From Parelaphostrongylus tenuis (lineage: Eukaryota > Nematoda > Chromadorea > Rhabditida > Metastrongylidae), in contig JAHQIW010005360.1 in assembly GCA_019055375.1 (NCBI GenBank), positions 310,001 to 374,000 of the forward strand: 64,000 nucleotides of DNA. The letters run 5' to 3'. Every line of letters begins with the position of its first letter. Within the stretch, counting starts at the first letter, position 1. A program made the position numbers and the translations under genes. Under the pieces are notes generated by a model. The model saw only the letters and a list, made by a program, of their open reading frames with translations. It made no database searches and was not told the DNA's origin. Positions 906 to 62,137 of the stretch are shown here, piece by piece.

Positions 906-3900
906 GCAGTTTCACGCAGAAATCTTCCAAAAACAGCATCAGTTCCGACATAGATCTCAATCCTGACGTGTTTTCATATTCTCTTGTAGTTCCATATTCT
1001 TTCCGGTATCTGTTATCATAATGAATTTGTACCGAATCCCGTACTTTTGATGTGACCTGTTTTTCATTTACTTCTCAGCAAATTTATTGATTTCCTTTAT
1101 GTTGTCTTGAAAATGGCAGTATTTTCTTCGTTTATGACTATGTGTAGAACTAGGTTGAATAAAATTTTAAAACCGGAGAGTATTTTAGAGCCTTCATCAT
1201 TGGAAAGGAAGTTTATAGAATCGTGTTGGTTGTGTTTATCAAGCGTAATATTTGTCTTTCCCACTAACGCATCGTCTGGGAAGAGAGCACATGCGTTGAT
1301 AAAATAGATAGCGTAAAATCAGGTAAATGGTCGAAGATATAGAAGGGCTGGTGTTATAATTTCACTATCCATCGTGACCTTTCTGATTCAGTTTTGAAAT
1401 ATAAATTTCCAACAATGGCAAACTGACCTGATAAATGCATAATCTCTGAGGATCAAGACCCACTTTACAAAGAGTGGATTTTGAGGGGGTTGAGCGTTAA
1501 ATTTCAGATCAAGTTGATTTATATAATATCAAACGTACAGTCGTATGTCAGTTGTTGACGACCGTCTGAATGCTTACGAATACGGTAACCGCTGCGTGTA
1601 CGATACGGTACTCAAATAGTCGACTAAATCGTTGATGAACGACGTTGGCTGGACAGCGACCTTATGCGGTAGATATGGAGTGTAAATGGTCCTTCCGCCG
1701 CTGTTCCGTTAGTATTTTTTTTCTTGATAGTCAATTACATTTAATAATCACTTGCTGAGGAATGTAATTGGTGACGTGCGCTGTTCCTTGCTGCTGTTAT
1801 CGCCATCGTTGTCTGGACAGCACGTCATGTCTACACCTTGGATCGTGATTTTCACAAATTCTTCGCGTCTTTGATGGTATCCCATTCGTGTTTGGAATGC
1901 TCAAGTTGACTGATCTATTTTTGATTGCATGTCGCTTTAAAGTTAGATGTCTCCAAAATATGAAAGTTTGAGCACGCAAAAGTTTTTGATAAAGCTTTCA
2001 AATAAATGCCGCATTATATTCGACTCAGTCATAATCCTTAATCTTTTGCAAAATGCTGAGAGTCTTGAAAAAAGCTTCAAAAAGTTGCCATGATATTGTC
2101 GGCGAAGAGCTAATAATAGTAATATTGATATTAATAATGCAACACAATGTTAGTAATAACAATAATATTGACAATAATAATAATAACAATAATAACATGG
2201 GGAATGGAGGAGGGTAGTCGAGTGGTCAGTGATGCATGTTGTCAAGAGATTGTTATAAACCAAAATGCTAGCACGAATTCCTCCACCAACACTCCGTTGC
2301 AATTTCTTAGGAATGGTGTAGTCTGGATGTGTTCAGAGTGCAACGAGATTTGATTGGACCGGTATCACGGCATTCATGAAGAATTATAGATCTTCAAGCT
2401 GCATTCAAAACAGCAAGTGAAATGTTCGGAGACGATGAAAGGAAGACTGGAGTCAAATGTTAAAAAAGCACTGGGATTCGGCGCAGTATAATGTGATAAC
2501 AGGGCGTGAAAATAAAAAAAAATTAGCAATATCTCTTGATGTCATTCTTCCTAAGCGATCGACGCCCTTTAATTTTTAGCTCTATATACTTGGAACTGGG
2601 GTTATAACAACGCTTGTAGTCATGGGAATTTTGAGATAGAAAGGGTTGAAAGTCTTGGAACGTTCAACTGCCCTCAGTGCCATGTCTGAATCCCAGCCAA
2701 ACCAGGAAATTCTGCCTAACATTTTTGATGCTTATAGAAACTGTAGAAACTATCCATTGTCTATATGTTAAGAAGGACTGATTCAATAACATCAATGAAG
2801 CTTTTTTCTTTTCTCTGAAAGGTGAATGCAGTGTATACGAATTGATTGCTAGCAATTCATAAATCAACTTTTTATATCGATAACAACTGCATGAATAGGC
2901 TCATAGATTTTGCATAGAAAACTTTCAAGAATCTCAGACAATTTTTTATTCGGTACAATTTTCCTTCGTCGTTTTTTGCTGATATGTGAGTTATCAGCTG
3001 CAACAGACGGATTGGTGTTGGCGAAGAACGTCTGTTCTATGGAATACGGTTGTCCTGGGTACATCGGCACAGGACACGCACCCACGACTGGACTGGAATG
3101 TGGCCGTGCGCCATGTCCAGCGTGATATCGCAACTTTTAGGGTGTTGCTTCACAAATCAACCGTTTTATCGCTGTGATCGTTACGACGGGTCGTTTTTCT
3201 TACGAGATGGCGTATGGTCAAGTTTAATGCACTACGTCTACGACAACGCGGCAATTTCGACAAGTACTCTGCACTATCGCAAAGTCGTTACAGATAGGAA
3301 TGTGCAAAACAAAACGTACTGATAAACAATGATGTTAAGTCAGGCAAGAAAAGTGAACTTGTTATCTGAGAGGGAATCAGTTCATGCAGATGATGACACA
3401 GCCACAACTGCGCTGGAAACGCGGTATTTTTGGATCAATACAAATTCATATAACATTAAAATGGACGAACTACTTATACATCAGTCGAGTAAGCTCAGTA
3501 AACTTTGTAATTTCCAAATTCTATCTCACTTGGAAGGGCAAGTAAAATTTACAATGATTGATGCAAAAACTATATGTGTTCTTCTATTGGTAGGGTAAAA
3601 AAAATTCAGAAGCCATGATCTAATGGCGGAGCGCTCAGTAGGAAGCAAAGTGCTAGCTAGTTCGACGTTCACAACGTTCTTTTGCAGTCCACGTAAGCAC
3701 GTCTTCGCTTGGCTTTCTCATATGACATTCATGATGAAGACGAAATCATAAAGGATCAACCGGAACAGCACTCGGATCATTGAAGAAGTTGACCTTTGCG
3801 ATGGTGAATGCAAGGGAAAACAGCAGTGAGATCCACGTAGTGGGTGTAATGGTGGGCCTTGTAAATAAATAAATAATAATCGTAATATTTAAATGTACTA

Positions 3901-4384: not shown

Positions 4385-5762
4385 TAGACATAGATATGAA
4401 GTTAAAGCATTCGCCTTTTACCGGTCTTTTAGAAAGACTATATGGCGTGCTTGGCTTACACAATGCAACGGTGACCTACAATAGTGTCACGTCAGTTTAT
4501 TTATCTTCCAGACAAAACTAACACCAGTTTAACTACTCAGGTCGACTGGTTTTCTAGCACCGCGGACTGAACCGACCATCAACGTTATGTTTTCCGGCTC
4601 CAACATCCATTGGGCAATATGTACAAGTCAATAAAATAAAGCGATAGAAAAGTGTGAGGCTCCCTTCCAAAAATCACACAGCTCAGTGAGCTGCGTTGCC
4701 AGTAACGATCCCTCGAAGTTTGTTCAACCACTGTCCAAAGTAAAATAGGTTGTCAACTTCTCCTAATCAGTGAATTTCTCTTATGCAGTCTCTGGTAAGC
4801 GCAGAAACATTAATTTCGATTGACTAAAAAAGATCGTAGCGTCTGTTCTTCAATAAGGAAATACTTCAACTGCTGATGAGATCTGAATAGAAACTTGAGG
4901 TGACTTCTTTTCAACGACGAAAATTTACTAGTTTTGTGCGTCTATCACCTAATGAAGCACCTGTTCTCAGACAGCATAGATAAGGAAAGTGATCACACCT
5001 CGTTCACACGTAGGTGACATTCAAGACAAGGGCCATCGTGCGCTCATGGAAATCTCATGAGAACCTGTTAGGTGCCTTGGTTATGAATAGCGTTGAGTTA
5101 CATGAATCATTATGCATTTTCTTACTGTTAGAAAAAGCATGCTTTGCCTTGCATTTGAGCAAGGTATGTATTTTTTACAAAAGTAGCCCATTAAGTGGGA
5201 AAGTAGTCTCTTTATTTTCTCAGTTCTCTTAGAATAACATTGTTATACTACACATAGTTGAGCAATTGAGAAAATCAAAGTTCGACCGGGCTTCGGTGAA
5301 CGCCGAAAAGAAATTTCCCATCATTATTTGTTTATTAAGGCTTTGTCGTTGTAGCGCATGTGATTTTTAGTTCTAGGAGTATAGACGAAACTGCTGGATT
5401 TGTTCTCTTCTCTTTCCTGCTTATGTATTCTGAACACAGAAAGAAGGCTGGAGTGGAAGACAGTGGAATAAACTGTAGTTGTTGAATCCTTGTAACTACA
5501 TATATATTCAAATTACATAATTAATCACAAAAAAAATTGCATTAATACTCCTCTTAAGAAATTCGTATATGTGCGGGGTGTATATCCCCTGCAAGGAATT
5601 GGCTGAATCGAAAGGCACCGTGCTGTTGTTGAGGCTGGAATGCCGAAATACGTGTTTAGCACTGCATAAATGCCATAACAGACCTCATGAAACTCTCAAG
5701 ATATGTTGTAAATTATAGGTTGTTTTGAGCGATTCTATAAAAGTAGTCGAATGTGAATGTAA

Positions 5763-11396: not shown

Positions 11397-12250
11397 ATTG
11401 ATCGCCACATCATCGTCGTTTTGCTGACGGTGTCGTTCTTCTATATTTATACATCAGGCAGGTGAATGACACATTAGCTGATTCATGGTGTCTGTAAAGA
11501 GACTGGGCTACCTACGTATGAGCAGGACGAAAATTCAGATTATGAGGAATCCATGGTACGAAGGTGAACAATTTTAACTCAATGGTTTTCTGATTAGGGA
11601 GACCACCTCATACGTGTACCTTGAACGAATACTTAACGCGGGGAACAATTTGAAAAAGCAATTAGTCAGTAGAAGGGAAGCAGCATGGATCGTATTCGGA
11701 CCTCGCAAAGAATCCACCGAGCAGATAGTAGGCTCCAAACTCCGTGCTCACCTTTTCGATTCAGCAGTGCTCCCAGCGCTCTCTTGTACAGCAGATACAT
11801 GGGCTAATACTACAACTGCGTCAAGAAGTCTGCGTACTACTCACAGGGCACTTGAGCAAAGTCTCCCGAAAATCAGCCAGCACTCACAACGCTTAGCCGG
11901 CTTGCGCAGCTCAGATCTTCGAGAACTCTCTCATCTTCATGATCCAGAAGTAAATACATCAATAGCGAAACCAAGGGGGGCCAGTCATGTAATAAGAGTA
12001 ACGGATGACGGATGGACGGAAAAAACAGTGGAGTTGACTCTAAGAGAATGCAAGCGCCTTTTTGGAAGATCACCCAGACGATGGCGGACATTTCTGTCAT
12101 TAACGCCAATCATTCGTATCCGCAGATTTCAATGAGTTTGGATTCACGGAATGGATTGTACGTACGTCAGCATGTTCGAAGCAGATCAGCACCATGAACA
12201 ACAGATGCGTTAGAGATGAACGAATGGAAACTATGCCAGGGCTCGTATTA
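11397..12250 (+). mobile_element. RTE-type non-LTR retrotransposon fragment (reverse transcriptase 3' part)
   Basis: The plus strand encodes the RT active-site region as a decayed FADD-like motif (RRFADGVVL at about 11415-11445). A single 173-residue frame at 11614-12135 follows, with YLERILN, LRAHLFDSAVLPAL, RTTHRALEQ, LAGLRSSDLRELS and GRSPRRWRTF. This order is typical of the C-terminal half of RTE reverse transcriptases common in hookworm and related genomes. A frameshift lies between the FADD region and 11614, and the reading continues with stops to about 12235. It is a dead, 5'-truncated insertion, not a host gene. Confidence 0.85.
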
Positions 12251-25500: not shown

Positions 25501-26237
25501 ATTTCCACCTATTCAACACACAAAAGAAGCCTTTGAAACTAGGAAGATCACCTGGTTTCCTTTTTGCCTCGGATCGCATGTTTCCTCGGATTTCCCGCCT
25601 CACTGTTTTTTCTTCTTCGGTTAAAATTTGACATGTTAGAATCTTTGGCAACAAAAGTTCTCTCGAACTCGGTCCTTGTCGCATATTCGCTGCTGATAAT
25701 CCAAGCTGCTTCTTCTAGAACTCTGCCTTATCAAATTCACTCACACCCCAGCCCTATACTACGCGTATCTCCTTCGATTTATCTTCTATCTTGTGCAGAC
25801 ATTTGCAAGGATTAACCGGCTTCTAATCTGCAGCAATAAGTGGTTATTGGATTTTTCAAAAACTGAAAATCAGTAGCTCCCTTAAATCTAACATCGCTAG
25901 TGTCAATGAATTTTGAATACATATCTCAGAATTTTTTCTTAAACAAATCCTTTGAAGAATCATATGTGCATATTCTATGGATATTTTCAGTCATTGAAAC
26001 CATCAACGGCAGCATTTGTCTTACAGTCAAAAAAATGATAAAGAGGAAATTCTAAATAGAAAAAATAGAAAAACTGCAGGAGTCCAACAGTCATATGCAC
26101 CTCGCATTATTGTCATCTCATGTCATCTAGCTGAATAATGTCCTATCTTAGTTTCTTTTATTTACTTATAGTTATTTCACATATTTTCTGACAGTATATT
26201 TTAAGCCTTCCATGAGGTCTGTTATGGCGCTTATACG

Positions 26238-26280
26238 GTGCAATACACGTGTTTCGGCCTTGAAGCCTCGTCAGTTGCAC
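26238..26280 (-). ncRNA. Hammerhead ribozyme motif (class A, complete)
   Basis: On the minus strand: stem I GTGCAA, core CTGACGA, stem II GGCT, loop TCAA, stem II GGCC, core GAAA, stem III ACAC/GTGT with no loop, then A17 and stem I TTGCAC. Stem I is six perfect pairs. The cleavage triplet is GUA. All catalytic core positions of the hammerhead (C3, U4, G5, A6, G8, A9, G12, A13, A14) are present. A stem III this short usually works as a dimer, as known for ribozymes of Penelope-like elements and retrozymes. Confidence 0.8.
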
Positions 26281-27530
26281 AGTCCTTTCGTTTGAAGCCA
26301 ATCCCTCTCGGGGAACAATCCTCCTCTCTTACAAAAAGAAATCGTCGGCAAACGTATTCCACTGCCGCGTGTAAAGTGAAAATAATGCAATGTGTATTAA
26401 TATAATTTTTAGTATATTTGTGTATTGGTAATAGCATAATATATAAGTTATAATTTCAAGCGAAGTTTTTGAAAACTGTCGAATATATAGATATTTCGCA
26501 CATTATTTGACAACCGACGTTTAGATTGGTCTTTTCAATACCTTCGTATTGTTCCAAGCACCACTATCTCCTTTATGCAAATGATATTCATAGCTTCGCC
26601 AATTATAATGTCGTCAAAGCGTCTACCCTTTGGAATTTCGCCAATGGAGACCGCTGACTTTCCCATCAAACTTTAAAGCATACTGTTTACGTACTTGTTT
26701 CCTTCAGAACTTTATGTTGTTTTCTTTGTTTTTTACGATGCCTATTAACGTCTGATTGTGATTTAGGCCCTATTTATGTTAACTATAGAAAACCTCCCAC
26801 GTATTTCATCTTCTCCTTCGAAGGCCTCAACATTCCATTCCTTTGGTCAGCCAGCTAATCCAAAAATCACTAGTAAGCAAACAACGATGCCCGCTCTTTG
26901 CAGTCGGCAACTCCCTCTCCAACGCTGCGTATCTCCATGTAGGCTGCTATTTTTAAATGTTTACAATTTCGTTTCCTAGCCGCTGCTTGAGCGATTCCAT
27001 TACGCACTCGATGTTTTTGCTCTAGCGGCTCGCTGCAGCTTTACGGCTCCATAGTACGATTCCATGGAATCGAGAGTAAGACTTCTTCGCCTTGATCATT
27101 TCTTTACGACTTACTTTTTTGCACCCGTAGAAAAGCTGAAGAAACTTCAATCGTAAATAAAAAGCATTTTCTCAGATAAAGCAATTTCTTGGAGAAATTC
27201 AGGTTTAGTGATGTAAGCGAATGCAAGCGAATGTAAGCAGCGATGATGCTTTCCCACAGGTCATAACGATCAGTAACTCAATTTCACACTCCTTTGCACA
27301 CATTGTTTAGCTTGAGACATTGTTATCATCTAATTGAATAAGAATTAGCAAGTTGTATAAAGCGACTCCCAGAGAACTATGTGCTTTCATCAGATAGGTC
27401 ACTATGACAAAACATCGACCCTGGGAACAGATTGAGTTCTTCGTGATTTCTTTCAAGGATTATTCTGTCGAAAACTTATGCATTCTTTGACGTGGGAAGA
27501 ACTCATCACTAAATCGTATGCCATCTGTGT

Positions 27531-28892: not shown

Positions 28893-28936
28893 GCCCGATA
28901 CACGTGTTCCGGACTTGACAGCCTCGTCAGTTGGGC
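28893..28936 (-). ncRNA. Degenerate hammerhead ribozyme motif (class A)
   Basis: Minus strand: GCCCAA, CTGACGA, a stem II region GGC...GTCC, then GGAA where GAAA is expected, then CACGTGTA and TCGGGC. Stem I has one mismatch and the conserved A13 is G, so activity is unlikely. The upstream sequence resembles that of the other class A copies. Confidence 0.6.
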
Positions 28937-31879: not shown

Positions 31880-33655
31880 TTATCTGTCGAGACTTATGGA
31901 CGGTGTCCCAACGTAAATAAACAACTCCAAAGAAATGTAGTTTCCTAGCGCACACAATTCTAATTATTGAAGTATAGAGGTGAATGTTCAGTTTTGTGTA
32001 GTTACCATGTGTTGGTTGTTCTCTAATGCGCAGTTCTCTTCAGTTTCGTTTTTCTCACTAGCTGCAACCCTGACAGTCAAATTTTACCGAGGCTACAGGT
32101 GAAATGTTACCTGTATTTCGGTATGGAAACCACCTATGCGGGTTTAATAAGTTACCGTAAGATTCGAAGCTGAAATTGTCCAATTTTATAGGATACCATG
32201 ATGAGAATTTCCGTCTGTGATGGGCGTCCACGCTCATAGGCGGCTTACGTTTATTAAGCTTTTAATCATCGTAATAATCACTGAGACTTTTTAGAAGTTT
32301 TCTAGAAGTTATGGTTAATTTTATGGCACTTATATAGTACTAGAGGAGCGTTTTTTTGCCTTCCCATTCTCATCAGTAGTACAGTGCTTTTTGGTTTTGC
32401 CGATCTCTTGCAAGGCGATATAGCCCAACTTATAAAGGAATCGACCCAATAACAAGTCACTGTAGGTCAGGTGATAAAATTCCACATATCGCAGTGACCA
32501 ACAGTGGAGCTCGTTGCTGGTAAAATCTGCTGTCTAATACTTTGTAAGTGCCATACCAGACTTTATAGATACCCCAAAGCATGTTATCATATTATCAGAT
32601 TATTATTGTTTTCAAACGAGGTCTATCAAAGCAGTTGAATGAAGAGAAGGTAATGGTTTCAGAATCACAAATGGATGCCTTTCTTCAGAAGTTTTTTAAA
32701 AGATATGCGATATAGAAATCGACGTTCATTAGAGACAAACTCAGATGCTCCTTTCATGGGCACACAAAGCTATGCAGTGGAAAATAAAATTGGTTTTTTT
32801 TTCCCATTGTTCCGACCATGGTAGTCATTCAATCTTGATGTATGTTTCGCAGACCAGGATGCATGCAGGTAGAAGGAATGAAGCTCAACGTCATCGCATT
32901 ACCAAGGGTGTGATGTCAAGAGTATCTCGTATCACGGAAGTGAGAGATGTAATTCGAGCTCTCAACATACGTTGAAATAAAATACTAGCCTAAACAGAAT
33001 ATCGAAACGATCCTTGCATCATTAGAAGCCGATTTCCGCTTACAAACATTTTATTTGAAGGCAGTTTGAGCTATGAAACTGTGTAATACTGGATTGTAGA
33101 AGTCGTAAAGAATTCACGTTTGTTGCTCGGCCAAAATCTGAAAACTCTTGAACAATTTCAGGACACGTTCTTCTGTTCTGTCGGCTAAGGTGCTACAATG
33201 ACTAGTGTTGTTGGATTGATAACAAGAAACAACTTCATATAAATCATGAAAATTTCTTCTTAAATTGCATTCTTCTCAAAAACACATTATTAACCCCAAT
33301 TCCATCTTGTCCTCAATCCATTGATGACCATGCCTAACTTGATGTCGCTACAAACTTGCTTATTCTATATAACAATGGACATGATCTGGATATGGAGGAG
33401 CGAAAAATGAAGACATCATGGCGTCATAGAAGAGACATTGCTCTATCACGTAGTGGATATGGATTCTAAGTATGCTAGCAACTGATATCAGTTCGAATGC
33501 TTCACCTTCCAATCACATCAGAAGTGCTGTGTTTGTAGCTCATGTTGGACCTATTTCTGAATAGTCCAAAAAAAAACTTTTTATTTAAATACTTTTTAAC
33601 AGTGGTAAAATGTCCACATATACATCTAAGAATGATGAGTGGTATCCGAATTACT
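31880..33655. other. No feature recognised
   Basis: No exon or RNA gene supported. Confidence 0.4.
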
Positions 33656-38627: not shown

Positions 38628-39549
38628 GACAATACCATCTGATAACAAATGTGCAAGTCTCCATTAGACCGCTTTTCTATAGTACTCGCTCAAAACGATA
38701 TATGTATAAGTATTATATGTCTGGATTGCCGCAAAAAGCTGCTCTAAGCGGTAGTAAAAACGAAAAACAAACGTATGAAAAATAATCAGCACAAGCGAAA
38801 AGGTCCGGAGAATTCCTCGCCACAATAACACGTGATGTCACATCTCTTGATCATATCCATCTCCTTTAGCAGCATTACGATGCCATAACTATATATCTAG
38901 GGATGTTGGTTGATACGTAAAACTCTGAACCTTGTTAAGGAGGCGAACCCAGGTCTCCTCCTATGTTGGGCAACTTCTAGCCATTGCACTACCGAGGCTC
39001 CTGTTCTGCTATCATTCTTTCTGCCTACATCGTTTTTGTCACTTCTTTTCCTGGATATTATTGGCTAATCCATACAGGTCCGTCCAATTTCGGCTTCTGA
39101 TGGGCGAGTGAGGGTCGAGTTCGATGTCGTGCTCCGGATGACCAACCCACTCGGCACTCTTCATGGTGGCTGCACGGCCACCCTCATCGATATCTTTACA
39201 ATTTGTGCTTGTATGACTACCACAAGGGGACAAGGTGGTATTAGTGTGGATCTACACGTGACGTAGGTGATCTTCAAATGCTTACTGGATTCTTTTGAAC
39301 AGTGGACTAAACTCCGCTACTCATAAAACCCTACTCAAACTGGCTACGCCATGTTCTGTTCAAGTATTTGGCCGCAGCCAAAGAGGGCGAAACGGTTCTA
39401 CTCGATGCTGAAGTGATTCGAACAGGAAAGACACTGGTCTTTACAAAGGTAAACCATCAAGTCGTTCTTCTTATTCTTGTTGACATGGGCTATAGTAAAA
39501 CCTCAACCTCTTCTACTCAATCAACCACATGATTATTATCAAATAAGAA

Positions 39550-39700
39550 TTTTCGAGGTTGATCTCTGTCCCGAAATTCACTAAAAAAAACCACTCCAGG
39601 TTGACCTCTAACATGAATCTACTGAAAAAAGCATTTCAGTTAAACCTTCGGCTTTAATCTACTAAAAACTTTTCAGGCTGACCTCTACCTCAAATCCAGT
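39550..39700 (+). repeat. ~40-bp tandem repeats of the exon 4 acceptor region
   Basis: Three upstream units starting near 39550, 39591 and 39631 resemble the true intron/exon junction at 39670-39700. Each has a ttttcag-like acceptor, then gttgacctct-like sequence, then ...atctactaaaaa. Copy 2 lacks the expansion. Confidence 0.6.
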
Positions 39701-39844
39701 AATAAAATGATTGCAACCGGACTGCACACGATGGCTTTTCCTGCCACTCAGTCACTAGATAAATAAAACATATGAACAGAAATACTCAACGCTAGAATCA
39801 AGGCAGATTTGTTTTAAGTTCTCGACAAGAAAAACATTCAGATC

Positions 39845-39939
39845 TCATAACTTTTGTTTCTTCTTTATGCACAAGTCAAGCTGTCTATGTATTTCTCTAT
39901 GCTGTAATCCTTCCGTAGAAGGTCTACCACGTAGGTTAC
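39845..39939 (-). pseudogene. Dead copy of eIF2D last exon (duplicate)
   Basis: Aligns end to end with the real last exon at 47741-47836. Differences: acceptor CAG changed to CAA, one Lys codon lost, and a one-base deletion that brings an early TAA. The poly(A) signal of the true gene is also lost. Translation VTYVVDLLRKDYSIEKYIDS still shows the homology. Confidence 0.85.
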
Positions 39940-40075
39940 TTGAAATATAGAGATTGATTACTCACTTTTAAGGTTTGTTCATTGACATAATCTAATATGA
40001 AGATGTTGTCTAAGAGAAATGCACTACGAAAAAACTTTGAGAACTATCTATGCGGAAAACATATCAATAGAGAAC

Positions 40076-40141
40076 CTGGTCCCCTAATACAGTGACATGT
40101 GGCTTCTCAATATCGGTGCCACTACACCACTAATGCCACCC
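40076..40141 (-). pseudogene. Dead copy of eIF2D exon 14 (duplicate)
   Basis: Matches the real exon at 47976-48056 up to its donor side, with a one-base deletion that shifts the frame and a new in-frame stop. Homology ends near 40141, where a tRNA-like repeat begins. That is the likely duplication breakpoint. Confidence 0.75.
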
Positions 40142-40840
40142 TCTCCTACCACTCTTTATTCGATTTAAACTATCGTAGCTGCCAGCAACCAACCTTCAAC
40201 GGGTTTCATCTGGTAAACTTATATCGGTATGAGTAAAAGGCGAGTTCAACATTCCTATTTCTGTATCTTTTACTCCCATTTTGAGAACTAACAGTTAAAT
40301 CACAGTGTCCAACTTCTATGTGCTGCCTTTTTATCATGTCAGGGTACAACGTGAGACACAGCCTCAAGAAAGCCGAAGTTTGAGCAGATCTGGGAGAATT
40401 CAAACCCGCGCCTACCATTTCTGGAGGTTCACATTTTACTAACTGAAAAAACAGTCTATTTCTAACACCATCCGTTTCCCGCATCTACTGTGCGGAATTC
40501 AAAAGATGAATGTTTGATAGGAGGTAGAAAGGATAAAGGATTCTCGGTGAGCAAGACTTTGCAGCACAACTCATTTGAATTTTCAGAGCTAGCTGAGGAT
40601 CATGTAGTACAGTAGTTTGTGCAAAAAGAATGAACGTTTGCCTAATTTGATGAATGTTCTGCAATTTCTATACGACTTTCTAAAATCTCCTCATAGAAAG
40701 AAGAATTGAAGGCATCAATTCTCCGCTGTTATCGCTCTGTCGAAATTACGATTTAATAGATGAATGCACTAGCCGAAATAGCAAAAAATAACTACAATGT
40801 TTTGATGTAACTTCTTTATCATATTTATTACTTGAGCCTA
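40142..40840. other. tRNA-like relics; no gene
   Basis: Sequence after the duplication edge resembles the tRNA-like repeat near 33740 (actctttattcgatttaaac, cgtagctg). A second degenerate minus-strand tRNA-like unit lies at about 40385-40450. Confidence 0.45.
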
Positions 40841-40990
40841 CATGTCATGTGGTCTGTTAATGGGCTCTTGTACAGTTTCCATACACATGTGGCTCAAATA
40901 ATAATTATAAGATATATTGAAATTTGAGCGTGGTCTTAATAAAACACTCGAGATATAAGTGTAACTTCTCTATTAAAAACGGCTAGGATC
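40840..40990. repeat. Ribozyme-element relic lacking the catalytic core
   Basis: Shares catgtcatgtggtctgttaatggg, catacacatgtggctcaaa and the downstream ttttgagc.gtggtcttaa...aaacactcga with the class A elements at 41.7 and 55.2 kb. The hammerhead core is deleted. Confidence 0.55.
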
Positions 40991-41718
40991 TTAATTTCAT
41001 ACTTATTGTATGAAACTTCAACTCTTATCACATGTCACAATAAGGTCGAAAATCAGCCCGCTATTTGTTGTGTAGAGAAAGAGCGGATCTCCTTCACAGA
41101 GGGTTTTCCTGCCGACTTGTGGAGACAACGCGAAGTGCTTCCAGATTACAACAGCTTTGGGAAAGACAAATGAGGAGAGACTGATAAAATATCTCTAGGC
41201 CAAGTTTACGATGTGTAGCTACAATACACGCTCACTTTGTTCTTTGCGGCTAGTCTCCACATTCACTAGTGAACTAGTGTACAACAAAAAACGGCTTTCA
41301 CAAAGGCGAAGCTGCCAAAATGTTAAACACGTATACAAAATTTATTGTGCTATTTTGTACAAAATAAACGTATATCAAGAACCTTGTGTTCGCGAAACAA
41401 AAGAAAGTTGCAGAACACGCCCACTTTTATTGTGGCCGCTGTGAGCTCCATAAAGGTTATAGCGGTGGGTTGAAAACTAAGATTCGTCGCAGGTGGACGC
41501 CACGAAAAACTAGATCTTTGACGCCAAAATGTCAAACTGATTGATCAGATATTCTCGTTATGTCTAACCTTCACTTACGCTTATATGTTAAGGAAAAGAA
41601 GGCAAGGATACATGATACTGTATTGAACAACCCATGAACACAAATGTGCGGGTTCCAGCACTTCCGGCGTTCAATTTGCTCCTTCGCATTTATCCCCACA
41701 AGTGTCATTAAACATGCC

Positions 41719-41896
41719 TGATAATCATTATTTGAGTCACGCATGTCAGTGGTCTGTCAATGAGGGCTGACTTCTAGAGCCCGATACACGTGTTTCGATC
41801 TTGCGATCTCGTCAGTCGGGCAGTCGTGTATCGGGCTCTATAAGTCAGCCCTCATTGACAGACCACTGACATGCGTGCTCAAATGATGATTATCAG
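41719..41896. repeat. 178-bp near-perfect hairpin containing a hammerhead ribozyme
   Basis: Left arm from gataatcattatttgagtc through cccgatacac and right arm from gtgtatcggg to gatgattatc are complementary over about 70 bp with few mismatches. The short loop holds the catalytic part of the ribozyme (41779-41821). The inner ends of the arms meet around the ribozyme cleavage site. Confidence 0.85.
41779..41821 (-). ncRNA. Hammerhead ribozyme motif (class A, complete)
   Basis: Minus strand: stem I GCCCGA, core CTGACGA, stem II GATC, loop GCAA, stem II GATC, core GAAA, stem III ACAC/GTGT, A17, stem I TCGGGC. Both stems are fully paired and the GCAA tetraloop is a stable type. Compared with the copy at 26238, stem I and stem II change on both strands at once (covariation). 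Confidence 0.85.
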
Positions 41897-42299
41897 ACAT
41901 ATTGTAGTTTGAGCTGTGGTCTTAAGAAAACACTCGAAATGAAAGATATGTCTTCAAACATTCCACGTGTTGCTTCTAAGACTATTTGCGGATTTCGCCT
42001 CTTTATGAATCTCGTAGAATGCTGGTCGAGACGATTCTTCCTGCAATCTCGGAGTTAGCCGAGCAAAGACGTTCTCTAGGTGATCAGCTGATTGACTGCA
42101 AGTGTTGCAGGAGGAAACTGAACCAGCTCATCTCCAATTACCTTGTCTCCTGACACACCCCATCACTAACCATTTCACTATTTCGCCTCCAAAGATACAT
42201 AATATATCACATTTTTTGATCCCAAGACGGAAATCGCCCAAAAAAGACTGCAACTGACAAAATCTATAAAAGAACATAATAGCTCTTCTTGAGCATGTC

Positions 42300-45354: not shown

Positions 45355-45516
45355 GAGATTATCACTGTTATTGTTAGCGCTGTCAGGTTCTCACGCTTGG
45401 ACGCTAGTTGAGATCACTGTTATTATTGTCGCTATCAGGTCCTCACGCTGGGACTCTAGTTGAGATCATAATTGTTATTAGCGTTGTCAGGTCCTCACGC
45501 TGAGACCCTAGTGAGG
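45355..45516. repeat. Three ~53-bp tandem units upstream of ACOT13 copy 2
   Basis: Units begin gagat at about 45355, 45410 and 45462, each with ctgttatt.ttagcgctgtc, aggtcctcacgctgggac and ctagttg. The array ends about 50 bp before the start codon. Confidence 0.8.
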
Positions 45517-45566: not shown

Positions 45567-47657
45567 ATGTGTTCCGGTAAACATTTGCAAACACTGAAAC
45601 AATATTTGGCTCTTTGTATGAAATCCAAGAATTTCATGGAATTCGCCGGAACTGTGAGTTGTATTTCCAGAAACTCTCAGATTTGATCTATTCCTAAACG
45701 ATGCGTCGTGCATTCGACTTCATCGAGCATCGTCTGCGGTGGTCGAATGCATATCTGGCCTTTACAAGTGGCTCACAGTGACCTACCGCTCTATCGACTC
45801 AGTGCTGCTTATCCTCCCAGGCAAGTTTGGCACCGATTCACTGACCCCGGAGGAATAGAAGGCTCACTGAGACTTGGGCAAGGGATAGAACCATCGAGCA
45901 CCGACTAATCGATAATGAGTGTAGCAGACCATTTCTAACCGTTGCGCCACACGCGTTCCTTCTTTATCTGGAAGAAATCAGCACGGATGGTTCTTTCAAT
46001 CTCTTTTCCTTTTGAATAAGAAGGGGAGTACGGAACCATCCAAAACATGTAAGAGCGCGCGCACGCAGTGGTGTGAGCTGCTCTGCGACGCACACAAGGG
46101 CTCAGGGCTCACCAAGCTTCCAGGGTCGATGAGTTGGTACCAGACTTGTCTGGGATGATAGCGGCACTGACTTGACACTTCAGGTGGGCCACCGCGAGTC
46201 GTGAATGCCAGATTTGGACTCAACCACCTCTAACGATGCTTGATGAAGCCAAATGCCCCTTTCTTCTCGAAGTGACCGACTATCATAGGTCCGTCCAATC
46301 TCCGCTTCTGATGGGCGTGTACGCGTGGAGTTCGATGTCGAGCACCGAATGACCAACCCAGCCGGCACTCTTCATGGTGGCTGCACGGCCACCCTCATCG
46401 ATATGTTTACGACTTGCGCTTGTATGACTACCGCAAGAGGACAGCCTGGTGTTAGTGTGGATTTACACGTGACGTAGGTGATCTTCAAGTGCTAAGTGAA
46501 GTTTCATCAATGAAGCAAGCCCCCAGATCTCACTCAAACTGGCTAACCCATGCTCTGCTCAGGTATCTGGCTGCAGCCAAGGAGGGCGAAACGGTGCTAC
46601 TCGATGCTGAAGTGATTCGAACAGGCAAGACGCTGGCCTTTACAAAGGTAAACTATCAGTTAGTTCTTCTTCTTCATGCCATGTGTCATAGCTATAATGG
46701 TTCCTTCTAATTATGTGGAGACAGATGAAAAACCGACCTGATTCGCTGGAGAGGAACTTTTCATAGGAGTGTTAGTGACCATTCAAAAGCTAAGACTTGA
46801 GGCTACAGCCCTACGTCGCCGGAACGCTGTGAATTCTACACGAAACTAGGTCTCAGACGTGCATTTTTCTCGCCGGACAGAGCTCATTCTCTGAACTAAA
46901 AGTAATTATTTGATAGCGTACTCGTTTTTGATTGTAGCTCTGCGATTATATCCTGAAAAGACCATTTCTCCGAAACGCAGCAAGGAAAATAAGGTGAATC
47001 CCCATCTGCGATCAAGGACCTCTCCTGCCGATTCACATGCGTATGCATGGAGCGGCCACGTGAACTACTGACGCGATGCTTCTCCACGCGTTCATATGCC
47101 CGAGAAATCAATGGTCATCGTGTCACCGAACTTGGCTGCCTCAGTCAGCCGCACGTGAGTTGGCCAAAGTGCCATTGGTCGCAGATGGGAATTCAACTTA
47201 ATTTACCTGCTGCGTTTCAGAGAACCGCTCTTTTCAGGATGTAAGTGCAGCGTTGGAATCAAATTCGATTACGCTATTGAATGATTAGTAATAGTCCAAA
47301 GAAAGAGTTCTGTCCTACAGAAAAATGCGTGTCAAAGCCAATCAATCTCCTCCTGTAGCAACGTCAAAGTCTTTTTCGAAGACCGGCGACGTGGGGCTGT
47401 AGCCTTGTCTCAGCTTTCGAATGGTTGCTAACACTCCTATTAAAAGTTCCTCTCCAACAAATGAGCACGGCTTTTTATTGTCCTCTTATAATCAGAAAAA
47501 AGCCTGCAATCCTAACGTGCTTCTCCTCAACCAACCATACGATTCACATCCGAAGAAAGCTTTTCAGGCTGACCTCTACCTTAAATCCAGTAATAAAATG
47601 ATCGCAACTGGATTACACACAAAGGCTTTCCCTGCCACTCAATCTGTAGAGAAATGA
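45567..47657 (+). CDS. ACOT13: ACOT13-like acyl-CoA thioesterase (hotdog fold), copy 2
   Basis: Exons 45567-45653, 46289-46473, 46563-46647 and 47568-47657 join in frame to 148 residues, close to the 140 of human ACOT13. Exon 1 begins MCSGKHLQTLKQYL after ctcgcag and tctcag acceptor-like sites. Exon 2 carries MTNPAGTLHGGCTATLID, with the catalytic Asn and Asp and the HGG turn. Exon 3 ends EVIRTGKTLAFTK, and exon 4 is ADLYLKSSNKMIATGLHTK. Members hydrolyse long-chain acyl-CoA, often at mitochondria or in the cytosol, as homotetramers. Intron 1 holds a pair of head-to-head SINEs, and intron 3 a 760-bp foldback absent from copy 1. Its stop is 83 bp from the stop of the convergent eIF2D gene, so 3' UTRs may overlap. 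All splice sites are canonical, which makes this the likely functional copy. Confidence 0.9.
45690..46256. repeat. Head-to-head inverted pair of family A SINEs
   Basis: A minus-strand copy (about 45690-45958) and a plus-strand copy (about 46050-46256) face each other inside intron 1 of ACOT13 copy 2. Shared blocks include tcgactcagtgctgcttatc and gaatgcatatctggcc. Confidence 0.75.
46720..47483. repeat. Long foldback element in ACOT13 copy 2 intron 3
   Basis: Left arm (aaaccgacctgattcgctgg, ggaacttttcataggagtgt, ggctacagccctacgtcgcc) and right arm (ggcgacgtggggctgtagcc, aacactcctattaaaagttc) are inverted over more than 100 bp. Internal segments (gaccatttctccgaaacgca against its complement near 47200) are also inverted. 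Confidence 0.75.
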
Positions 47658-47740: not shown

Positions 47741-50700
47741 TTACTTTTGTTTCTTCTTTATGCCTAGTTCCAAGCCATCAATGTATTTCTTTTCTATACC
47801 GTAATCCTTCTGTAGAAGGTCTCCTACGTACTTCACCTGAAATAAACACATTGATTACCCATTTTCGAGAGTCTGCTCATTGTCATAATCTATTTCAAAG
47901 ATGTTGTCTAATAGAAAAGTACTATTAAAAAACATTGCAAACTATACATACGGAACGAACACATCAAAAGTGAACCTGATTTCCTAAGACGGTGATCTGT
48001 GGTCCCTCACAATTCGGTGCCTCACTCGTACTAGTAGCGCTTGTCGCCGCCCCAACCTATAATAATGCTTCCAATCTACGACAAATGGCCAAATGGTCAC
48101 AAAATTACAGTTATTCGGAGCAAACCCATTACAGAAATGTACTTCATATGACTTAGAAATTAGTAAAATCACTGGTTTTGCTCCGTAATTGAGGACACTT
48201 TCCACAACAAACTAGAGTCTCACAGAAGTTCAGAACTGGGTAGGCTTATAGAAACACTCTGCCCTACCAAATTATTTCCATATATAAACTCATTTTCGAC
48301 TTGAATCTGTCTTAAGTGAAAAATTTTCGAGAAATTCAAGACGAGAAAATCAATTTTCGCAATTTCAACGAACAATCGGCAGCGCCAAACACAATTACAT
48401 TCGGAATCATCATTGTGTCATGCTGAGAAAAAATTTTCTTAGTCATTCTAGCTCCTGTGGTGGAAACATGAGCTTTGAAACAGGTCTCGAAGTGAAATCT
48501 TGAAAGGAATCTCTTGAGAAAATCTGATCACCTGTATTTGTTGACAAAGCTTCTTCGTATCGATTCCAAAAACCGCCAAATTATTTATTATAGTGACTTT
48601 CTTGTTGCCTGATCGAGTCTCCACCTGGCAAATAAGAGTTTAATTCCATGTAGTCGATGAGAATTCTTGTCCTTTTTAGCAGTGGTATGATGTCATAACT
48701 AATGTCATAATATGTCCAATAATGTTGAGTGCTAAGCAAAACTCTGGACCTCGGGCAGGAGTTGAACCCGCATCTCACCCTTTTCAGTGGCGTGTGCAAA
48801 CACTACTTTACCGGAGTCGCTGTTTTGCTATCACTCTTTTTGCGATATAAGCTTGAGTTTAATTTAATTTGAGTAAAATCTCTCAACCGAACCTTGAACA
48901 TAATTTTTGGCATGTTGACCTTTCGAACGAGTTCTCGGCCATCAGGCATTCGGAGTACGAAGGTCTTTGTCATCTTACTCTGGAAACACTTTGTACAAAA
49001 ATCGATAGCAAGAAAGTGCAATTAAACTCGATTTTGACACGAAAATATGTGATAAATGAACTTCTCAAATTTCACCATTGTTACGGCAATGTTACGATAT
49101 TTTCGTCTGAATATCCGAGAGTGCTGAGTAGTGCACAAGACTTTCGATCTCGGTCAGAAGTTGAACCCGTGCGCTCCTTGGAAGGAGAAAGAGCGCTTGA
49201 AAGTTTTGCATACCACTTGGCATCCTCGGATGGAAATATAGCCTTACTTACTATACAATAGACTCAATATAGTCCTAGAATGTGAGTATTACAAAAGCAC
49301 TTTAAGCAATTCAAGAGCTGGAACGAGAACGAGCTGGAAAAAGCTCTTACCTGAATTTTCTGCATGAGTGTATTCCAGTCCGTTACTTCTCCAGGGATTT
49401 TCGTAACATTAGCAAGGATAGGATCGAGTCGCACCATCTTGTCTTGATTTAGCTCCTGAAAATTCCTTTAATAAAAATTCAACGTCGTCTACTGTTAATA
49501 CAAGAGTACCCTAAGTAAAATCTAACATTCCATATTTTGAGAACCAGCTTTCCTTGGATCCTCTGAGGACCACGTGCTACGAAACATAACACGCCGCGCG
49601 ACGTCGCATCCCACCCAGCTACTGCGACAGCAGTCCCCAAAGGGTGAACTTTGGCATCACTAATCAGCAACAGTTTCTTCTTCATTTAGCTAATATCTCG
49701 GGGTTGATAGATGGGAATATTCGGCCAACGTTTCCACGTCTTCGTCCTCTTCAGTGACGATGATTTGACTCGACTCTTCACGATCATTCATCTTCGTTGT
49801 GATGCTTCCAATATTCTAACAATAAAAAAAAACTTTTTCTGAAGTTGAAGAAAACGAAGAGTCGAAATGTCGTTGGACTAATGAATCCTATTTATCAACT
49901 TCGTGGAATCAGTCAAATCAAAAAGGAACTAATATAGTAACTCCACAGTAGAAATTAGAACGAATGTGGCGCAGTGGTTAGAAGTGGCTCTGATGCATAT
50001 GGGTGGTCGATTGTTCGATCTCGCACTCGAATTCACGAAGCCTTGCATCCCTCCAGGATTGGTGAATTGATACCAGACTGGTCTGGTAGTATAGCAGTAC
50101 TGATTTGATACACGGTAGACCACCACGAGTGATTGTTAAGGCGAAATATGCATTCATTCACCTATGGCGATACTTAATGAAGTCGAATGCATGACGCATC
50201 CCTCACGGATTGATCAACGTCAACAGCTTTTCAGGCTGATGCTGAGAATATTTTGTAAATCAACCGTGAAAATGAGTGGGAACAAACTTCACTGCTTTAC
50301 ATAGTCGGTGACGATTTGACGGATTTCTGGAACCGCTAACAGTTGACCTTTCGAGTATTTACCGCAACATTGTAGAATTGGTAGCACTTCACTCGTAATC
50401 TGAACAGCCCTTTCAGTACAACGTTTATAGGAAGACGTGACACCACAATATAATGAATACGAAAAACAATAGCAAAATGGGAACTCCATAGTGTAATGGT
50501 GGTACGTGCCTGCAGAATGGTTCGAAACGCGGGTTCAATCCCGACTAGTGCCCACTGCTCGCATATCACTTAGCATCGAATTCTTTTTGTTTGACCGCTT
50601 TGTAGCGGTGGTAAGATGTTTCAAATATACCCAGTGATGTAGAGGTGGTGTGCAGAACTTTCGCGTCAGACGGGACTAGAACCCGCACCTCACTCTTTCC

Positions 50701-53700
50701 GGGAGCGCGTGCTCTATCCGTTACCCTACTGACGCCCATTTTGCACACGACTCTTTCTACGCTATAGCGCATCTATCTGTCAGCCGCTAGCCGTCAACCG
50801 TCCTCGAAACCAAAAGAATTCGATTTGATCATATACCCAATATCTGTCAGCGTGACTGGGGTTCAGTGTCGAGACTGACTGCCCGGGCCAAGCCGTTGAC
50901 GGCTGGCAGCTGACAGATAGATGCGCTATAGCGTAGAAAGAGTCGTGTGCAAAGTGGGCGTCAGTAGTGAAACGGATAGAGCACGCGCTCAAAGAAAGAG
51001 TGAGGCGCGGGTTCAAATCTCGCCTGACGAAAGTTTTGCACACCACTCTGCCACTGGGTATATTTGAAAAAACATCACTTTATATCCTTGGATACACATT
51101 TATAGTAATATGACGCTGCTATGAGAGCGGCAAACTAAAAATTCCTGTAGCTGATAGGAAAGTCTCACGGAATAGAACTCATGGATCTTCGGACCACAGG
51201 TGACTGCTGCCTGCTCGTCATGGACAAGTTCGTCAGAGACAGTGAAAGATCGTAAAGCCGGATGTGATTTGAAGACCTGGTAGACCAAATCATAGAACGC
51301 ACAGCAATGAATGGGAAATTTATAAATGAAATGAATAAAAAATAAGAGGAATGAGAAAGATGAAGAAACGATAAAAAAACAAACCTCGACGATCGTGTCG
51401 CATCCCTTTCCATTATTCCTGATCTCTATCAGTGGACCATCCTCTGATTTATTTACCTCAAATTAATTTCTATACTTGAATCGATCGAATTCCCCGATAT
51501 GTCCTAGTCACCTTACCTCGTTGAGGAATACGCTGAATTTCTTATATTTTGTCTTCTTCACATCCAAATGCCGCCCACTGGGGACGCATTTGAGCAGACA
51601 AGTAGAGTAAAACTAGAACGAGAAGGTTTCGACAAAGTATCAACTACCCAGTGATGTAGGGTAATGTGCAGAACTTTGGCGTCAGGAAGGACTTGAACCC
51701 GCATCTCACTCTATTAGGGATCGCGTGCCCTAACCCGCTGCACTACTGATGCCCGTTTTGCCACCACACTTTCTACGCTACAACGAATCTACCTGTCAGA
51801 AACCAACCGTCAACGGTTCGGCCCAGGTAGTCGGTATCGAAAATTATCCCACTCACGCTATCTAATACCCAGTATCTGTTAGCGTGGCTGGGTTCAATGT
51901 CTATATCAACTACCTGGGTCGAACCGTTGACGGTTGGTTGCTGACAGACGCGTTGTAGCGTAGGCTGATGGCAAAACGAGGACCAGTAGTGCAATGGTTA
52001 GGGTACGCACTCCCTGATAGAGTGAGATGCGGGTTCGAGTCCAAATTAACGCAAAAGTTTTGCACATCACTCTACATCACTGGGAATATCCATTAAAGGA
52101 ATCCTATTTGATCATTCAAAATACCAACCAGTTATTCAATCACATCTCCCAGAATGGAAAATGTTAAAAATTCCAGATTTCGGGACCATGGACCCAACCC
52201 TCTACGCTTGTAATACCAGCGTGTTGCGTCCAACAATGACGTCTAACCCCAGTGTGCCATTGTTAGACGTAGAATGCTAGGGGTTAGGGGCGCAGAGGGT
52301 TGGGCCCATGGTTCCGAAAGGGTTAAGGAAAGATGATAACAAACTTGTCCAACATCCATTGGCAACTTTTCCAATCTAAACTTGAGAGCAGCCAAAAAGC
52401 AGCGAAGTAGCTGAAATAGTTCCAATTCCGAATACTCCCAATACTAAGGAAACTGATAGGTTTCACAGACAAAAATTAAAAAGAATGGACCGACACTTCA
52501 CCAGGTCATCCATCGATTCGTCTGAAGATGAAGAGGCATCATTAGCAGAAACGTCGGCTAACATTCCGTTCTCACAAGGCGGCTGTTCACCTAGGAATTA
52601 TGACAGAATAAAGGAATAAAGGGTAGAGCTTTCGGTTGACCAGTATCTCAGAATTGCGCCATTCATTCGATTCCATTCGTAGCACCATCTGAGGGGACTG
52701 AATGCACATTTGGCTTTTGCAATGACTGGCGGTTGCCTACCGATGTGTCAAGCGAGTGGTGTTAGGCTCCGAGACAAGTTTGGTACCAAATCACCGACCC
52801 CAGAGGGATGGAAGGTTTCTTTGAACGGGCAATCTAAGCATCCCAACCATCGAACATCGATTGATCGATTACGTATGTGTGTAAAGCTAACCACTGCACC
52901 ACAGGCTCTCTATGACAGGATCAGTGTAGAAATATAAGGTTTGATTGGGAACGAATCAAACTGAAGGAAGAGTTAGTACTGAAACTAACCACGAGCATAA
53001 AGGCAGGCTATTAGAAGCTCAAAATAATGCGTAGAATTCTAGCACTGGTCCCAAGAAAAGCTCTACTTTTTCTGAAAGGGAACTTGAGAAACCAGTAAAG
53101 TACTAAGAAAATATGTGAGAGCTTTCAATACTCCTCGTAAATGGGGTATAAAATCTTGAAATACTTAGAGGGGAGAGAGTGGTGCAGTGCATTAAAAACA
53201 AAGGTGTTAAGCAGTGTGCTGGTTTGACTTCCACCCCCAACATTCTCTTGCAATCTACCAAGTGTACGCCTGGGAATGCCCCAGCCCGGCTACCTCCAAG
53301 ATTCCAAGGAGAGTCGCCTAAACCAGCATTTTTGAAGCTTCTTAAGGAAGACGAAACCCTCAAGCAGCAGCCGAAGCAACACATGAAATGTTCCAGAATC
53401 TTTGTGTAAGACTGGATGCGTGCAGGGAGATTGAATTGGATATAAGAAGTATGAAATCCGCACAAAAAAACTGTGGTGATGGATCAATGAAATAAATGAA
53501 AATAAGAAAAAACTATTGGAAAGGTGATGCGTGACATACCGATATCGCTAGGTGGATGTTCCTTCTCCTCAGATCCTTCAACTTCATCAGTAATTTTGAA
53601 AATATCGTCCAGATTGAGGACTGATGGCGATTTACGTGATCCAAACTCCCTTAAGAATTTCAAGTCACCTTTACTGTACGATGAACCCTAATGCTCATTT

Positions 53701-55815: not shown

Positions 55816-55955
55816 TCTGGCGACAGCTTCTCGAGTGAGGGAGTCGAAATCGATGTTAATCGTATGCCACCAATCGTCAAAACCACTGTGCCATCTGAAG
55901 AATCGTGACTACAACGAATCTGCCCACAGCAGCAGCGACGGTCAATAACCAGTTG

Positions 55956-58082: not shown

Positions 58083-58421
58083 TTGGAAAGAATACTTATA
58101 TAGTTTTGTAGCCCACCGAACCACCTGCCAGCCGAAAACTGCTGCTGTAGCGAAAGGCCGATGTTCCATGTGTTTTTTCCATACTACTGGGCTGACGCGA
58201 GGTTCGTGCAGGAAGCATCCTGTATTCGGCTAAAGCTCCGACGTCTTCGTCGTGTTCCTCTCACCGGATCGATCCGAGTTAGTGGTCCCCAAACTTATTC
58301 TGCTCACTTCGTGTCAGTCCATAGGGTAATTTCCAGGGTTAGGTCCTATCTGTTAGCATCTGGACTGTTTAATTTCAAGTAATTCTACAGCTTGATTTAA
58401 ATGTTAAACTATAGTTGTTGT

Positions 58422-58792
58422 TTATATAACCAAGAGAATTGAGTGGTGAGCAAAAACACGGCCTCAGGCGGGAACCGAACCCGCGCTTCATCCTATCCGG
58501 GGACGCGTGCTCTAATCACTACACCACCGAGGCACATTTGCCCGACCACTCATTCTTCAACATCTCTGTGTTAACTATCAGCCACCAACCTTCAACAGGT
58601 TTTGTCGGATTTGCGATTTCGCTTTATAAATCCCACTAAGCTGGCATGGAGATGTTGAAGAATGAGTAGTCGGGCAAATGTGCCTCGGTGCTGTAGTGGT
58701 AGAGCACGCGTCCCCGGATAGGATCAAACGCGGGTTCGATTCCCTCCTGAGGCCGTGTTTTTGCTCACCACTCAAGTTTCTTAGTTATATAA
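58422..58792. repeat. 371-bp inverted pair of tRNA-Gly-like units
   Basis: Arms ttatataac..agaattgagtgg and its complement. Units 58461-58533 (minus) and 58682-58753 (plus) have acceptor stems GCCTCGG/CTGAGGC, box A ctgtagtggtagagc and box B cgggttcgattcc. The spacer contains agccaccaaccttcaacagg. Confidence 0.85.
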
Positions 58793-58916
58793 GTAACATC
58801 ATAACACTGCGAAAAAAAAGCGGTAGAAATACCATAATTTCGAATTATAGTTGTTGTTATTTAATATTTACCTTCATTAGTACTTTTTATAAGTTAGCTC
58901 TTATATTCTATTGTTA

Positions 58917-59736: not shown

Positions 59737-60268
59737 AGACGTTTTTGCACAGTACTCCACATATTGAGTATACTATAACATCATACCACTGCAAGTGGCA
59801 GTCAAAGTAGAAAGAATTTAAACTGATTATTTCTATAATTGTTCAGTTATTTATATAGTCTGCGATTTTTCTTGATAAGTTAAACTTGTGGTCACTGAAT
59901 CGGCTGAAACGTCAGCTGTTCAACCCTTTGCGAACGGCTGTGTAGTCGGCAACGTAAATACCGCGAGATGCTCGTATTTCAGTAAGAAGTATTTTCTTCT
60001 TCATTCGTCAAGAACTCTAGGTTTTCTTTGTATTTTTCTGATAGAGCATGATTTTCTCTGCACGTCCATATACTTTTCATGCAACAAATATGTAACTATT
60101 CAAAAGTTTGAAATTTATAGTATTTTTTATGCATTTCGCATTGTTATGATGTTTTCTATATACCTGAGGGTTCGATTCCCGCCTGAGGCCGCGTTTTTGC
60201 TCACCACTCAATTCTCTTAGGTATATCAAACGTTTGACTTACTATAAACCTCTGCATAATTGTAATGT

Positions 60269-60726: not shown

Positions 60727-61149
60727 TTATAACAAATATGTAATTGTAGTGCACGAAGAAATCTCCAAATGTAAAACCAAATTTTTCTTTCGCTCTCAGA
60801 TCGCACTATGAAGACCTTCACGAAAGCCAAATTTATCCTCAGAATTGTTGAGATATGTGCTGTCTGCCGATATCAGTATGGCCAAATAAACAGCGATCTG
60901 CGGACCTTAGCCAAGCAAACAAAGCAAATTGAATGTGGAATTTAATCTAATTTTTTCTGCAAGAGCCTAATAAGAAGGCTCTTTCAGAAAACAAGCACAG
61001 TTTAAATCCGTCGAGGTTCACTTTCGAATGACTGCGGATATTCCAGCTAAGCAGTTAAAACAGTTTGTACAGCAAAAAACTTCTCCGAAAAGTTGAGCGA
61101 TCGAGACGCCCCTCACCGTCCGCTAAGATCCAACCAATATCCTTATGTT

Positions 61150-62055: not shown

Positions 62056-62137
62056 ATTTTATCAGATTATTCTGTTCTTTTTTTTTACACTTTCTCCATA
62101 TGCACTTCAAATCTAGTTCTCTAGCCTGCACGATCCT

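Follow-up and report, generated by a model that had tools for sequence, protein, structure and literature searches.

Hammerhead ribozyme sequences in a likely Penelope-like repeat family of the nematode Parelaphostrongylus tenuis

The minus strand of positions 26238-26280 of the window, i.e. the whole stretch of 64,000 nucleotides of the Parelaphostrongylus tenuis genome which was analysed (C3549:310001-374000), is a genuine and complete type I hammerhead sequence. This hammerhead likely forms part of the pseudo-LTR (pLTR) of a Penelope-like family which has multiplied in the genome of a strongylid-like nematode and whose insertion would proceed by target-primed reverse transcription (TPRT) from two sites. 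The observed basis comprises the motif itself, covariation of its stems, its presence in many copies, the two sites at which arms end, the single tail of each inverted pair and target duplications in some of these pairs. The evidence is good but indirect that this hammerhead represents, in a nematode, a further example of an already known kind, namely the ribozyme of a Penelope-like element.

The hammerhead at 26238-26280 and its copies

The 26238-26280 hammerhead, assigned to subfamily A, was identified by a strict descriptor, by the Rfam model RF00163 and by comparison of its stems. Its layout is GTGCAA-CTGACGA-GGCT-TCAA-GGCC-GAA-ACACGTGT-A followed, beyond the predicted cleavage site, by TTGCAC. 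It exhibits the type I core CUGANGA...GAA, the A15.1-U16.1 pair and a residue other than G at H17, which is A in this copy, and the predicted cleavage site directly follows the A of GUA. All six pairs of stem I and all four pairs of stem II (one being G-U) are present, and stem III is an 8-nt palindrome. The initial annotation had proposed precisely these stems together with a full conserved core; both were confirmed from the sequence, every conserved hammerhead base being in place. A second complete hammerhead, which belongs to subfamily B, is located at 41779-41821 (minus strand) and was recognized by the strict descriptor, its Rfam score and the same stem comparison. It reads GCCCGA-CTGACGA-GATC-GCAA-GATC-GAA-ACACGTGT-A and, past the corresponding cleavage site, TCGGGC. 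It had also been claimed that the stems of these two copies changed in a paired manner around fixed cores, and a hand count of the ten stem I and stem II pairs agrees with this view, with five two-sided changes, one one-sided change and four identical pairs.

Beyond the two copies compared in the initial annotation, the window holds more: six alignable copies in all, a seventh relic and a related inverted pair, the majority of copies being mutated. The copy at 54908-54950 (minus strand), supported by alignment and by Rfam, has an intact core with a single stem I mismatch. The six-copy alignment also contains a degenerate hammerhead at 5620-5662 (plus strand) whose core is mutated and whose stem I, paired at 6/6 positions, carries its own compensatory change, a relic at 28893-28936 (minus strand) in which the core GAA has become GGA, and a right-arm hammerhead at 55167-55214 (plus strand), also recovered by a covariance model, which has lost part of stem III/stem I. 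This covariance model, built from the six copies, revealed the additional relic at 32333-32386 (minus strand, E 0.00028), which was absent from its training and in which stem I (GTACTA/TAGTAC) is fully paired, stem II and the second half of the core being lost. Two other matches of the model, 54876(+) (E 0.04) and 41747(+) (E 0.09), are antisense of palindromes and were excluded from the counts.

By sequence comparison, a subfamily C hammerhead with one core change, 5/6 stem I pairs and a distinct palindromic stem III (ACGTACGT) is found at 61725-61771 (minus strand). It lies in one arm of an inverted repeat of subfamily C spanning 61668-62074, and a decayed hammerhead at 61970-62017 (plus strand) lies in the other. 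Downstream of the ribozyme, pairwise scores indicate weak homology of subfamily A to B and stronger homology of A to C, the 26238 copy and the 61.7-62k repeat scoring 32 for a null 99% level of 24 and a largest null value of 41. Among the copies, fully paired stem I occurs in five sequence versions and palindromic stem III in three. All seven strict copies possess a perfect palindrome at stem III, of two kinds (8 and 10 nt), subfamily C having a third kind.

The genome amounts to 481.5 Mb in 5105 contigs, from which 200 kb around the window (same contig) and 40 kb from four other contigs were sampled. In the 200 kb, the six-copy covariance model detected 17 more copies at E<=0.001, 15 of which are distinct since the L013 and L016 matches duplicate each other, and 19 matches at E<=1. 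In the 40 kb, it detected four copies at E<=0.001, located on two of the four contigs, and nine at E<=1. If representative, 21 copies per 240 kb correspond to some tens of thousands genome-wide, a rough figure because 200 of the 240 kb come from one contig; copies probably number in the thousands across the genome, in several subfamilies with different stems. At L011:5252-5296(+), a strict hammerhead represents another subfamily, its stem III being a 10-nt palindrome (ACACCGGTGT). As for L013 and L016, they correspond to matching stretches located 26 kb apart (C3549:397979-400231 and 424346-426602) which contain the same hammerhead arms and, each, a 223-aa ORF, the two ORFs being alike at the start. 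This match reflects either a segmental duplication or an assembly artefact.

With Rfam, Hammerhead_1 (RF00163) aligns end to end at exactly 26238-26280 but with 28.8 bits for a gathering threshold of 34 (E 8.8e-6 for the 101 bases searched, or about 0.006 when rescaled to 64 kb by our own scaling). The copy surfaces only with an input of about 100 bases, and a scan of the whole window lists it neither at gathering nor at E<=10. The copies at 41779-41821 and 54908-54950 score 27.7 and 18.6 bits, respectively, and Rfam returned no hammerhead match for the subfamily C motif at 61.7k. Gathering was reached by one of the 19 covariance-model matches (L016 2268-2310, 34.9 bits), in a test which covered ten of the 20 fetched loci, these ten containing all 19 matches. 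The covariance-model match on which the initial annotation made its claim depend is therefore present, over the full length but below gathering for the 26238-26280 copy and above gathering for a sibling copy. The strict descriptor gave two matches in the window versus 0.0067 expected per random 64 kb (300 Markov windows), and seven matches in 304 kb, two of them mutual duplicates, versus none in the same DNA reversed. Collections of viral contigs and genome contigs returned no match to hammerhead patterns, which is what one would expect of an animal repeat.

Covariation was compared with that of 500 shuffled sets. In the six window copies, paired cells (91.5% versus 80.2% when shuffled), cells with a two-sided change (11 versus 4.0) and the covariation score (0.461 versus 0.245) all exceeded shuffled values, with 0/500 shuffles reaching them. 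Two further measures were not outstanding, namely the pairs with a two-sided change (5/12, equalled by 41/500 shuffles) and the further pair types (nine, equalled by 418/500). The 19 outside copies, i.e. those at E<=1 from the 200 kb with the two weakest included, were all absent from model training; in their alignment, which was fitted to the model and so leans towards the structure, and in which kinship of the copies inflates such counts, none of 500 shuffles reached the observed paired cells (90.5% versus 74.9%), two-sided-change cells (35 versus 11.9), further pair types (24 versus 18.2) or covariation (0.493 versus 0.187), and 177/500 equalled the pairs with a two-sided change (6/12). Slid structures on the same 19 copies were 15-52% paired. 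The proportions of paired cells and the covariation scores, above those of shuffles both in the window and outside, support the earlier proposal that selection acted on RNA structure in the source element.

Predicted folding and dimer formation

Within one molecule, stem III comprises only two pairs around a four-base loop. Neither the 26238-26280 nor the 41779-41821 RNA has the single hammerhead as its monomer minimum; for the former, this structure was computed at -7.6 versus -11.2 kcal/mol for an alternative fold. When two identical RNAs are folded together, the minimum is exactly a double hammerhead, at -30.3 kcal/mol for 26238-26280 and -36.9 kcal/mol for 41779-41821. The mutated 54.9k and 61.7k RNAs do not have the double hammerhead as cofold minimum. 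The dimer energy of the 54.9k RNA includes a non-standard pair, and the minimum of the 61.7k RNA (-37.2) is another structure, its double hammerhead being at -25.2. On the basis of these models, the palindromic stem III suggests that cleavage may take place as a dimer. A palindromic stem III in repeat-associated hammerheads has been described before, as has dimeric cleavage (PMC3088659, PMC7229834). Transcripts of the inverted pairs are predicted to fold into one long hairpin in which the ribozyme is hidden, and inverted-pair copies are therefore probably silent unless cleavage occurs during transcription.

Inverted pairs and their insertion

The retroelement unit surrounding the 26238-26280 hammerhead is a single arm, delineated at 26162-26334 (minus strand) by nhmmer with a six-copy profile including this copy (E 2e-40). 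For inverted pairs, an arm profile was used which runs from the ribozyme core to past the element end and whose seeds are six tailed subfamily B arms. It identified 32 arms in 264 kb and none in the same DNA reversed, with 3' ends at profile positions 89-110 (17 arms), 128 (one arm) and 150-162 (14 arms). In nine of nine outward-facing inverted pairs, one arm ends at 91-108 and the other, which is tailed, at 150-162; the chance of such a one-of-each pattern with shuffled ends is 0.011. The tail is carried by the right arm in seven pairs and by the left arm in two, and extends the arm by about 50 nt beyond the first end site. A tenth pair, on another contig, has ends at 99/161. Because the profile was seeded with six tailed subfamily B arms, the one-tail rule covers only pairs within its reach; two pairs escaped detection by it and fall outside the count, one of subfamily C (61.7-62.0k) and a weak one in L021 (3553/3789). 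In three left arms, the first end site is 67, 69 and 63 nt past the predicted cleavage site, the 63-nt distance being that of a subfamily C arm, for which the palindrome edge served as end point.

In the window, the 41.7k pair consists of a left arm at 41708-41815 (minus strand), ending at the no-tail site (profile end 108), and of a tailed right arm at 41823-41956 (plus strand, profile 24-158), which is 5'-truncated inside stem III. The second hammerhead-containing pair has a left arm without tail at 54842-54944 (minus strand, profile end 105) and a right arm with tail at 55177-55333 (plus strand, profile end 161). Both right arms were profile seeds. The profile and duplication scoring also revealed, at 40820-40971, an inverted pair whose short arms lack a hammerhead and which lies between TGTAACTTCTTTAT and TGTAACTTCTCTAT.

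Direct repeats at the outer ends of the nine pairs scored 7, 8, 12, 5, 11, 7, 9, 15 and 4 (null 99% level, 9), and their summed score was reached by 0/20,000 random sets. Target duplications at or above the 99% null level are found in four of the ten pairs, with 15/15, 14/15, 13/14 and 11/12 matches; the clear ones measure 12-15 nt and the best is a perfect 15-nt repeat. At this level, the six other pairs have no target duplication, the tenth pair scoring 6, which is not significant. Taken alone, the 41.7k target duplication is not significant either. In the 54.8-55.3k element, the left target duplication, TGTATTCATTAG, is located at 54835-54846 (plus strand) and its right copy, TGTATTCACTAG, at 55326-55337.

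In this element, the similarity of the 54.9k arm to the 55.2k arm breaks off at -62/-63, counted from C3 of the core. With the single-arm 28.9k copy, the 55.2k arm can be aligned further, up to -168, and the portion past the shared arm scores 47, a value above those of all 1971 random stretches (at most 43). From the limits of the arm match and from this extension, the 54.9k left arm is the shorter one and abuts the right arm near 55006-55009. The arms of the 41.7k and 40.8k pairs also begin at different profile positions. The idea of a viroid-like RNA, forming a symmetric hairpin and bearing ribozymes on either strand, was considered and dropped, as the arms are unequally truncated. Judging from this unequal truncation, two separate cDNAs joined head to head would fit the 54.8-55.3k element better than one symmetric hairpin.

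RNA read through the pLTR would cut itself at the GUA/GUC site, probably by means of a two-molecule 'double hammerhead', which is proposed because stem III is a short palindrome, weak within one molecule. Insertion would rely on target-primed reverse transcription, each target strand having its own fixed internal start site located 3' of the ribozyme. The product would be a pair of pLTR copies arranged head to head and truncated to different extents, of which one bears the additional tail, with a short target duplication on either side. The occurrence of one tail per pair provides genomic evidence in agreement with the in vitro finding of a separate start site for each strand. The Anolis Penelope protein (Poseidon) is reported to cut and extend both target strands in vitro, with reverse transcription from two adjacent internal sites, accounting for the tail (PMC11167929). 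The Anolis hammerhead is situated at the start of the ORF or pLTR-ORF junction, and ribozyme mutants left in vitro insertion by the Anolis protein unaffected (PMC11167929). In the rotifer Adineta vaga, Penelope is bordered by pLTRs in inverted orientation, one of which may carry a 31-bp tail at its 3' end, and target duplications are of 8, 9 or 10 bp in the copies quoted, with none in others (PMC3846280). Inverted pLTRs with a tail on one of them were found in ten of the ten pairs obtained with the subfamily B profile.

The present elements resemble those of Adineta and Anolis in their inverted pLTRs, single extra tail, short target duplications and two end sites 3' of the hammerhead. In contrast to them, there is no ORF between the arms. 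The tail measures about 50 nt versus 30-40 bp published for Penelope, the clear target duplications 12-15 nt versus the 8, 9 and 10 bp quoted for Adineta, and the no-tail end lies 63-69 nt past the cleavage site versus 85-92 nt in PAc (obtained by subtraction from values in PMC11167929).

Membership of the Penelope-like elements is what we infer, since no reverse transcriptase/endonuclease ORF was found; neither a reverse transcriptase nor a GIY-YIG domain was present in the 21 scanned of the 80 window ORFs. The action of a Penelope protein, self-cleavage and a dimer in vivo are likewise presumed. An ORF reading through the ribozyme, protein-like in five copies, was dropped as evidence. It has no homologue among 44 candidates and, by eye, substitutions between two copies exhibit no preference for the third codon position and the frame is broken in some later copies (e.g. 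L018).

The hammerheads of Penelope-like elements, reportedly the subject of studies by Cervera and de la Pena in 2014 and by Lunse et al. in 2017, are said to have a type I core in the pLTR, a weak stem III, dispersed copies and a proposed cleavage as dimers. Similarly, a type I core, a weak stem III and many dispersed copies are found here. While the minimal Penelope-like hammerheads reportedly lack most of helix III, the present ones have two stem III pairs and a palindromic tetraloop, one copy possessing a 10-nt palindrome. In nematodes, Penelope elements have been annotated in Caenorhabditis and Pristionchus (PMC10015627, PMC9297572).

It is possible, if unlikely, that the repeats are metazoan non-LTR retrozymes, that is, non-autonomous elements whose tandem transcripts would be cut to unit length by the hammerhead, circularised and reverse transcribed by a helper. 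A type I hammerhead, low GC and target duplications would be consistent with this possibility, as would a helix III of two pairs and a tetraloop, which is typical of invertebrate hammerheads (PMC7229834). The newt and axolotl hammerheads also have a weak helix III and a palindromic tetraloop and cleave better as dimers (PMC7229834). A weak helix III is thus common to all of these systems; however, metazoan retrozymes and the newt and axolotl hammerheads form head-to-tail tandem repeats, and no such array of 150-450 bp was found in the window by Tandem Repeats Finder. Same-strand doublets do occur (226821/227066, 248754/248972 and 399849/400114, with a duplicate of the last at 426218/426483), and two hammerhead units at L011:2068-2120 and 2364-2416(-), spaced by 296 nt, have the tandem layout which a dimer or a retrozyme needs. 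Nevertheless, the inverted layout with its two fixed 3' ends is the commonest one, and the helpers of retrozymes have themselves been proposed to be Penelope-like (PMC7761336).

A fold-back DNA transposon (MITE), with the hammerhead lying by chance in its terminal inverted repeats, is disfavoured and very improbable. Inverted repeats of about 150-490 bp, and the symmetrical inverted repeats with tRNA-like arms in the same window, are reminiscent of such a transposon, whereas the extra tail on one arm in each of ten pairs, the unequal truncation of the arms where measurable, the clear target duplications of 12-15 nt and the existence of single-arm copies argue against it. Least probable of all, to the point of being almost negligible, is a chance motif in repetitive DNA never used as a ribozyme, which would agree with an Rfam score below gathering, a monomer minimum other than the hammerhead and covariation measures lying within shuffles (two of five in the window copies, one of five in the outside copies), but not with covariation in copies outside the training set, five fully paired stem I and three palindromic stem III sequences, and zero strict matches in reversed DNA.

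Role of the ribozyme and neighbouring repeats

The role of hammerheads in Penelope-like elements has been described as unknown (PMC7761336). If the family studied here is, as we favour, a Penelope-like one inserted by two-site TPRT, its many natural variants and clear insertion ends make it good material for testing this role, and it is on account of these variants and of the clear insertion signature that we consider the family of moderate interest. A more speculative and rather doubtful proposal is that the palindromic stem III acts as a dimer-linkage signal. Two template RNAs would be joined via the double hammerhead and loaded on a dimeric Penelope protein, each priming one strand from a different start site. 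If true, this proposal would account for the fact that, in each inverted pair observed, the same RNA end is present twice in head-to-head orientation and only one tail occurs, and the role of the ribozyme would be template pairing rather than processing. Concerning previous reports, no paper on natural nematode hammerheads was present among the matches listed, and no priority is claimed; in the available text of the Haemonchus genome paper (PMC4054779), a word search returned neither hammerhead nor Penelope.

Several other repeats were observed in the window. Another inverted repeat, 60255-60404 / 60590-60740, contains CTGAAGAAGGC..GCCGAAACGTC in both arms, which we take to resemble the minimal hammerhead of Penelope-like elements. 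In its right arm (60590-60740), stem I is formed by GGCT/AGCC, but stem II is preceded by an additional A, and Rfam detected no hammerhead in this arm. Symmetrical inverted repeats with tRNA-like arms facing outwards are located at 50619-51069, 51647-52084 and 58416-58798, the tRNA-like sequence in the right arm of 51647-52084 being unlisted by Rfam. An inverted repeat of about 800 bases, with arms 70% identical, spans 46705-47497 and has flanks repeated at 39076-40120, and a 52-base tandem repeat is present in 2.9 copies at 45361-45512. Directly to the right of the 54.8-55.3k insertion, an ORF with a Pre-PUA domain (55400-55855, minus strand) is probably a host exon. Finally, the strongylid-like character of the host nematode is deduced from a LINE fragment (11614-12132) to which 31 proteins are related, the named ones being from Nippostrongylus, Necator and Strongylus.
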